From assembly GCF_039645585.1 (NCBI RefSeq), contig NZ_CP147915.1, positions 2,294,001 to 2,358,000 of the forward strand: a stretch of DNA of 64,000 nt, given 5' to 3'. The DNA is from Sulfurimonas sp. HSL-1656. Its GTDB lineage: Bacteria; Campylobacterota; Campylobacteria; Campylobacterales; Sulfurimonadaceae. The notes under the pieces are model-generated. The model saw only the letters and a program-made list of their open reading frames with translations, was not told where the DNA came from and searched no databases. Position 1 is the first letter of the stretch. Every line of letters starts with the position of its first letter. This document shows, one piece after another, positions 10,023 through 11,048 of the stretch. Made by a program: the position numbers and the translations under genes.

Positions 10023-11048
10023 TCATGCATCATCCTTCTCGCTGAAGCATCGGCATTGATGCTTCGATGAACGTGGCCGCGACGTCGTAGTTGATGGCGT
10101 CGCCGTAGCCTTTAATCCCAATGCGGCGCCACCTGGTATACACGCGTCCCAGATCTCCGGAAGGCCCTGAAGCCAGCGGGAATGTGCCGGGTTCAACTGG
10201 CCGCCACTTTCCATCTGTGCAGTAGAGCCAGTCAGCAGCGTCCCATCCGATTTCAGGCGGGCGGGGCAGTCCATTGTCAGAACTTCGTCCGGCTGTGGGT
10301 GTCCGGCCCGTACCGAACGCTTCCGACCTCTTCTTCGACGACGCGTCGGTGTCGCCCAGCCCGTCCTTGCCGCCGCATGGTTCAGCGTCACATTCTTCGC
10401 GTCGATCGAGACGTCGCCGCGTCGGTCCGCGTCTCCGGCTGTCGCCGTCGGCCAGCCGGCCAGTGTCGCTTCCTCTCTCAGCGGTTTCCCGCGAGGGTGT
10501 GCGAACCTGGCAGCCACTTTCTCCGGAGTGGTAAGCGCTCCCGCGTAGTCCCTGGCTATCGGCGTAGCCCACCCGCTCAGCGACAAAGTAGAGCCGCTGT
10601 CTGATGTTCGGAGCGCCGACGCCCGCAGAGCACAGATCGGCCCCCCCAAGGGCATACCCCATGTTTTCCATGTCAGCGCGTACAGCGGCGAGCCACGTCC
10701 GGCCGTCGATGCTTGCAACCTGTTCTCCAAAGCAGACTGCAGGCTCAAGCTCTCCGACGATGCGCGATACTTCCGGGTAGAGGTGCCGCTCGTCGGCGAA
10801 GTGACAATGGCCGCAATCGAGGCAGATGAAATATCCGGTTCGTTTAGGATGGCAGAGATGAGATCCGCCGCCACAGTTCGGGCATGTCTGCCCGGAGCCC
10901 GCCGTGGAGAATGGAGGGCAGGGGCATGAGAAGGTGCAGGCGTATCTGTCGTCGGGCCATCCGGCACGTCGCAGTGCGGAGCTCCACACTCCGATGCCGG
11001 CGAAGAAGTGGTGCTGGCTATATCCCATAAGGTCAGATGCTTTGACAT
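10023..11048 (-). CDS. Overlapping alternative-frame protein inside the methyltransferase gene
   Basis: 341 codons open in another frame of the methyltransferase gene. The ATG is preceded by AAGGAG (11057-11062) with an 8-nt spacer. The protein carries '[14 protein letters not shown]', '[17 protein letters not shown]', repeated 'WATPT/[8 protein letters not shown]' and '[19 protein letters not shown]'. I recall this layout (TLTWK...RLRAS.RT...WPTP...LNP...WLMG.P) in phage proteins annotated as hypothetical or methyltransferase-associated. Thr/Ser/Ala-rich with a disordered start. The frame and ribosome-binding site are seen directly. Translation and conservation are inference. Confidence 0.5.
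   Translation of the reverse strand: [341 protein letters not shown]

Follow-up and report, generated by a model that had tools for sequence, protein, structure and literature searches.

Can a single phage gene for a DNA methyltransferase carry a second protein of nearly the same length in another reading frame, and if so, what would that protein do? The question is raised by a locus in the DNA analysed here (the window, the whole stretch of 64 kb), where a long frame on the minus strand is nested, in the +1 register, in a C5-cytosine methyltransferase gene. A preliminary description had proposed that this is a dual-coding locus that may link methylation with an unknown partner. On re-check its coordinates, lengths and frame, the AAGGAG with its 8-nt spacer, the 90% overlap and the 7-bp distance between the two stop codons were all correct. 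The locus is laid out as follows:

10030..11157, minus strand: frame 1, large (alpha) chain of a C5-cytosine methyltransferase, 375 aa, motifs I-VIII plus X
10023..11048, minus strand: frame 2, proposed small (beta) chain, 341 aa, bearing the WPTP recognition region plus motif IX
11062-11057, minus strand: Shine-Dalgarno sequence AAGGAG of frame 2, 8-nt spacer to the ATG

The ATG of frame 2, at 11048, lies 109 nt inside the alpha gene. The frame-1 protein begins MAAYYNEFDP, which is where the family starts as well, and the frame-2 protein begins MSKHLTL. A stretch of 11 bp (10023-10033, minus strand) contains the two stop codons together with the ATG of the following gene (9611-10033), all overlapping, which suggests translational coupling. 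The locus sits in a prophage, with a portal protein, an S24-type repressor and a tyrosine integrase nearby; its upstream neighbour (11160-13859, minus strand) is a SNF2-type helicase fused to an N6/N4 DNA methyltransferase domain (PF00271, PF01555).

A second frame of this kind might be a chance ORF in a GC-rich gene. When codons were permuted with the frame-1 protein and its codon set preserved, a +1 ORF this long had p = 0.01 from the stretch alone (p = 0.92 for the +2 frame); many long spurious ORFs occur in the rest of the window, so ORF length alone is unconvincing. All of the family-level tests, low-GC genomes included, argue against chance. Over 67 loci the permutation gave p < 0.01 for the +1 ORF in 58% and for the +2 frame in none. 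Stops were then counted in 127 non-redundant homologues (below 70% identity). In the +1 frame 6 were observed where 69 were expected over frame-1 codons 40-130, 0 against 164 over codons 130-192, 2 against 137 over codons 192-290 and 19 against 90 over codons 290-350. The same homologues had no depletion of +1 stops ahead of the frame-2 start (199 observed, 157 expected) or past the frame-2 end (100 observed, 59 expected), so that the depletion starts and finishes with the frame-2 ORF, and their +2 frame had no depletion comparable to that in +1. Codon permutation, stop depletion and the dN/dS values given below rule out a chance ORF, and we consider this explanation refuted.

The two frames are also kept together across homologous loci. 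In tblastn searches of phage records, frame 2 matched 191 records and frame 1 matched 285. Loci were collected from viral contigs (with frame-1 queries and with a frame-2 profile), from bacterial genomes and from annotated phages; the frame-2 sequence alone, as a query for related loci, gave no match, and the frame-2 profile found at least 600 stretches in viral contigs. Since both profile scans of viral contigs gave at least 600 rows, the family is larger than was sampled. Among the matches listed, both frames were present, always +1 and overlapping, in 318 of 319 loci; the sole exception, L078, is cut by the contig end, and none of the 319 has a standalone frame-2 gene. The overlap of ~310 codons is maintained at 30-45% protein identity and at GC contents down to 43%, in phages of Proteobacteria, Firmicutes and cyanobacteria, and a related, more distant locus lies on a Bacteroides plasmid. 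The laboratory phages N15 and epsilon15 have the locus too. Low-GC and distant phages were examined on purpose as possible counter-examples; frame 2 is kept in all of these, those of low GC (0.43-0.47) being Vequintavirinae, HC8A, Bas77 and Paenibacillus larvae phage Honeybear.

The preliminary description had named homologous loci with a broken second frame and an intact methyltransferase as evidence that would speak against dual coding. Over frame-1 codons 40-334, frame 2 was uninterrupted in 135 of the 140 loci that were found with frame-1 queries only and have frame 1 intact (a further 153 loci of the interruption check came from the frame-2 profile). The exceptions are two loci with an HNH endonuclease gene inserted at the motif IX site (L053, L070), two with indels joining frame 1 to the frame-2 reading (L064, L071) and one with a real internal stop in frame 2 (L072). 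In L053 and L070 the HNH gene lies within the motif IX coding DNA, and in L070 a repeat of the interrupted segment comes after it; this looks like a homing insertion into a doubly conserved site.

Three other loci have irregularities of their own. In L242 an intein-like insertion splits the frame-1 catalytic motif IV between PC and QPFS and disrupts frame 2 only in its poorly conserved N-terminal part. A single indel shifts both frames in L322 (Krischvirus LF73P4), and L327 (Dunaliella viridis virus SI2) has lost its catalytic core to an internal deletion; these two are degenerate copies or sequencing errors.

Selection was examined at the level of codons. Third-position entropy at conserved fourfold frame-1 codons had a mean of 1.74 bits in codons 1-32, was similar until about codon 130, collapsed at roughly codons 133-183 and 293-349, and recovered from codon 352. 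Two blocks are constrained:

10582..10767, minus strand: constrained block 1, frame-1 codons 131-192, frame-1-synonymous rate 0.49 of upstream
10111..10287, minus strand: constrained block 2, frame-1 codons 291-349, frame-1-synonymous rate 0.29 of upstream

Block 1 has the frame-1 motif VII/VIII region over the frame-2 segment GSTLYxLTWK..ICALRAS.RRTS. Third bases are frozen in both blocks, for example at P139 (CCT in 115/126) and A169 (GCC in 105/109) of block 1 and at V321 (GTT in 111/114) and P323 (CCC in 102/104) of block 2. From 56 independent close pairs, the frame-2 dN/dS was 1.36 (0.93-2.02) ahead of the ORF, 0.65 (0.54-0.80), 0.40 (0.33-0.47), 0.48 (0.40-0.58) and 0.26 (0.20-0.33) in successive regions inside it, and 0.67 (0.46-0.90) past it, where the stretch is short and frame-2 tails reach into part of it. 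The frame-1 dN/dS in the overlap was 0.10-0.74, and purifying selection was found on both frames there. Neutral substitution in the second frame, which had likewise been named in advance as contrary evidence, is thus not what the values of 0.26-0.65 inside the ORF indicate. In the variable middle (the WPTP region) constraint is stronger on frame 2 than on frame 1 (dN/dS 0.48 versus 0.74), and frame-2-silent changes are 1.54 (1.28-1.87) times as frequent as frame-1-silent ones (NS/SN).

The inner start is conserved as well. An ATG stands at the aligned position in 90 of the 127 homologues, 59 of these 90 with an SD-like tetramer, and the Asp37 codon of frame 1 that supplies this ATG is GAT in 89/101, compared with ~42% elsewhere. 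The ATG is missing from the exact position in the other 37, so frame 2 must start elsewhere in those homologues. Frame 2 is a conserved protein under selection, and the proposed dual coding of the ~1-kb locus, supported by 318 of 319 loci, the +1 stop depletion and purifying selection on frame 2, is near certain.

Frame 1 matches PF00145 at 4.4e-6, above the family cut-off, and phrog_363 at 1.6e-52, and the A2 profile matches M.HhaI at 2e-16. The AdoMet/catalytic core with motifs I, IV (PC), VI and VIII is present; the combination of motif IX and recognition domain in one chain, as in C5-methyltransferases, is not found. By motif typing, motifs I-VIII and X are present and IX is absent. In the AF2 model of frame 1 the catalytic domain is confident, and a structure search matched the model to C5-methyltransferases across ~200 residues; an ordered recognition domain is absent, residues 203-296 being predicted disordered (pLDDT < 50) and residues 322-353 having low confidence. 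A zinc-ribbon-like insertion, CPNCGGG...FICLDCGHC (10804-10887, minus strand), lies between motif IV and the DERHL segment of frame 1; it is also found in L247/L087, L088, L167 and L177, and most of the family is without it.

The motifs of frames 1 and 2 are complementary. The sequence of frame 2 consists of (LA)GWPTPxxxD repeats followed by a motif-IX-like segment, which lies a few codons ahead of motif X in frame 1:

10338..10571, minus strand: WPTP-type repeats of frame 2, proposed target-recognition region, from alignments; frame 1 is variable and predicted disordered here
10149..10199, minus strand: motif-IX-like segment of frame 2, LNPxxxxxLMGxPxxW, a pattern shared with M.HhaI (RKLHPRECARVMGYPDSY)
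10060..10125, minus strand: motif X of frame 1 (IKGYGDAINYDVAATFI), just downstream of frame-2 motif IX, consensus LRGYGNAIV..A..FI

Motif typing by regex covered 232 loci; 132 others were left unanchored, and L363 was assigned by eye instead. In 222 of the 232 the motif IX pattern was in +1 only and frame 1 continued open beyond it; frame 1 also carries motif X in 208 of these 222. At its N-terminus frame 2 has ~90 residues that stay open and are weakly conserved. Frame 2 matched no Pfam family; it matched phrog_31772 (3e-22) and phrog_1008 (1.5e-19), both labelled DNA methyltransferase. Its layout had been likened in the preliminary description to independent phage hypothetical proteins, but these turned out to be this +1 frame itself, annotated under PHROG 31772 and 1008, and not independent genes. 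The predicted structure of frame 2 has a pTM of 0.30 and the model gave no structural match in the PDB, an outcome that would not be surprising if the chain needs its partner in order to fold. Given such a model, we infer the motif-IX and recognition assignment of frame 2 from pattern, position and fused relatives.

These relatives are of two kinds. A single ORF with motifs I-VIII, WPTP, IX and X in frame is found in L362 and L368. The second kind (L346, L360, L363 and L365) has a catalytic ORF that ends after motif VIII and a +1 ORF with WPTP, IX and X. From the fused and split forms, the frame-2 segment appears to serve as an in-frame recognition and motif-IX part, as a separate chain or as an overlapping frame. 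A phmmer alignment of the fused relatives with M.HhaI reaches motif VIII only.

Most likely, frame 2 supplies a second subunit to this methyltransferase. We propose, with a probability of roughly 0.77, that the product of the locus is a C5-methyltransferase of two chains, alpha from frame 1 and beta from frame 2, that would protect phage DNA. This reading draws on the frame-2 segment in fused and split relatives and on the same partitions in M.EcoHK31I and M.AquI. One mRNA with two overlapping frames would give both chains of the enzyme: alpha would contribute motifs I-VIII, for the cofactor and for catalysis, and motif X as the closing helix, and beta, translated from its own Shine-Dalgarno sequence and ATG, would contribute motif IX and the target-recognition region of WPTP repeats. 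Together they would form a heterodimer in which every motif occurs once, as in M.EcoHK31I, and in which beta would recognise the DNA, and the complex would methylate phage DNA and so protect it from host restriction. The earlier suggestion of a link between methylation and an unknown partner is supported as to the link and revised as to the partner, which is probably the motif IX and recognition subunit.

Other readings of frame 2 have to be weighed against this one. Frame 2 could be a real protein and not an enzyme subunit, for example an accessory or regulatory partner that controls methylation or blocks restriction; frame 2 has no match to a solved structure or Pfam family, and neither motif IX nor the recognition region explains its N-terminal part. 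Such a partner is made unlikely by relatives that have the frame-2 segment joined in frame with the catalytic domain or together with motif X, and by the absence of motif IX from frame 1. Programmed +1 frameshifting after motif VIII, which would give a fusion and leave frame 2 with no start of its own, is brought to mind by the natural fusions of both frames that indels have made (L064, L071; L362, L368). However, stops are already depleted in frame 2 over the ~90 codons that precede its conserved part (the 6 versus 69 above), the frame-2 ATG is conserved, a Shine-Dalgarno sequence is present at this locus, and the fusion product would have no motif X, since that motif is in frame 1; we regard frameshifting as very improbable. 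Conservation of frame 2 only through a nucleotide-level element, either RNA structure or DNA sites, would agree with the third positions frozen in two blocks and is disfavoured to the point of being scarcely credible, given the codon-shaped pattern, with frame-2-silent exceeding frame-1-silent changes in the variable region, and the avoidance of stops in +1 only.

Beyond the two-chain enzyme itself, one may speculate that the locus encodes two alternative target-recognition segments, that frame 1 alone, which has a variable segment of its own and motif X, differs from alpha/beta in activity or specificity, and that the phage switches between them by adjusting how much is translated from the inner start; such a dual-frame ancestor would then have had two outcomes, the EcoHK31I and AquI types. 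We hold this to be a rather doubtful idea.

The arrangement is kept in hundreds of phages and has mostly been missed by annotation. Both frames are entered as genes in Escherichia phage K1ind2 (ORF28/ORF29), in PhiXhv-5 and in Paenibacillus phage Honeybear (gp55/gp56, with the remark "not called by any programs"), and frame 2 alone is annotated in PMG1 and Cr-LKS3. In an E. coli prophage (L375, 796-1965) RefSeq has two partial pseudogenes where frame 1 is intact at full length and frame 2 is open; these calls are probably an annotation error. The literature searched contained no description or analysis of this overlap, and the K1ind2 and Honeybear pairs stand there without interpretation. Natural two-chain C5-methyltransferases are an already known kind of enzyme; what is new, to the extent of our search, is a phage-wide dual-coding form that is deeply conserved and whose inner frame carries the recognition repeats. 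Double-stranded DNA phages have few long, fully nested overlaps of genes on the same strand, and selection on them has rarely been demonstrated. The two-chain reading would account for a large class of phage "DNA methyltransferase" or "hypothetical" proteins that have no catalytic motifs, and it carries a warning that cloning the annotated frame alone may yield a dead enzyme. It would also connect, by way of shared DNA, the two types of natural split C5-methyltransferase that are known, so that their origin can be tested.

Several known systems can be set beside this locus. The ShiLan element (PMC11855218) was considered as the same arrangement and is different, being an out-of-frame HNH gene inserted in a phage methylase. 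The families PHROG 31772 and PHROG 1008 are both matched by frame 2, and their label "DNA methyltransferase" is misleading for it, since the frame-2 protein has no catalytic motif. M.HhaI shares catalytic domain homology with frame 1 and the motif IX pattern with frame 2; unlike this locus, it is one chain, with motif IX and the recognition domain in the same frame. The motifs of M.AquI (CYCGRG, alpha/beta) are partitioned I-VIII / IX-X (PMC3404938), with the distal recognition region and motif IX on the second chain. Its partition is matched by the relatives L346, L360, L363 and L365, in which motif X is likewise on the beta chain, whereas at this locus frame 1 keeps motif X and the two frames overlap almost entirely. 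Judged by motif partition, the closest known enzyme appears to be M.EcoHK31I (YGGCCR, two polypeptides). Its beta frame is located inside the alpha gene. Unlike this phage locus it belongs to a restriction-modification system, and its predicted recognition domain falls on the large subunit (PMC3404938), whereas the recognition region here is better conserved in frame 2. The large subunit of M.EcoHK31I has motifs I-VIII and X, with motif IX alone on the small polypeptide (PMC3404938); at this locus frame 1 likewise holds I-VIII and X, and motif IX, by pattern and position only, falls to the separate small chain.
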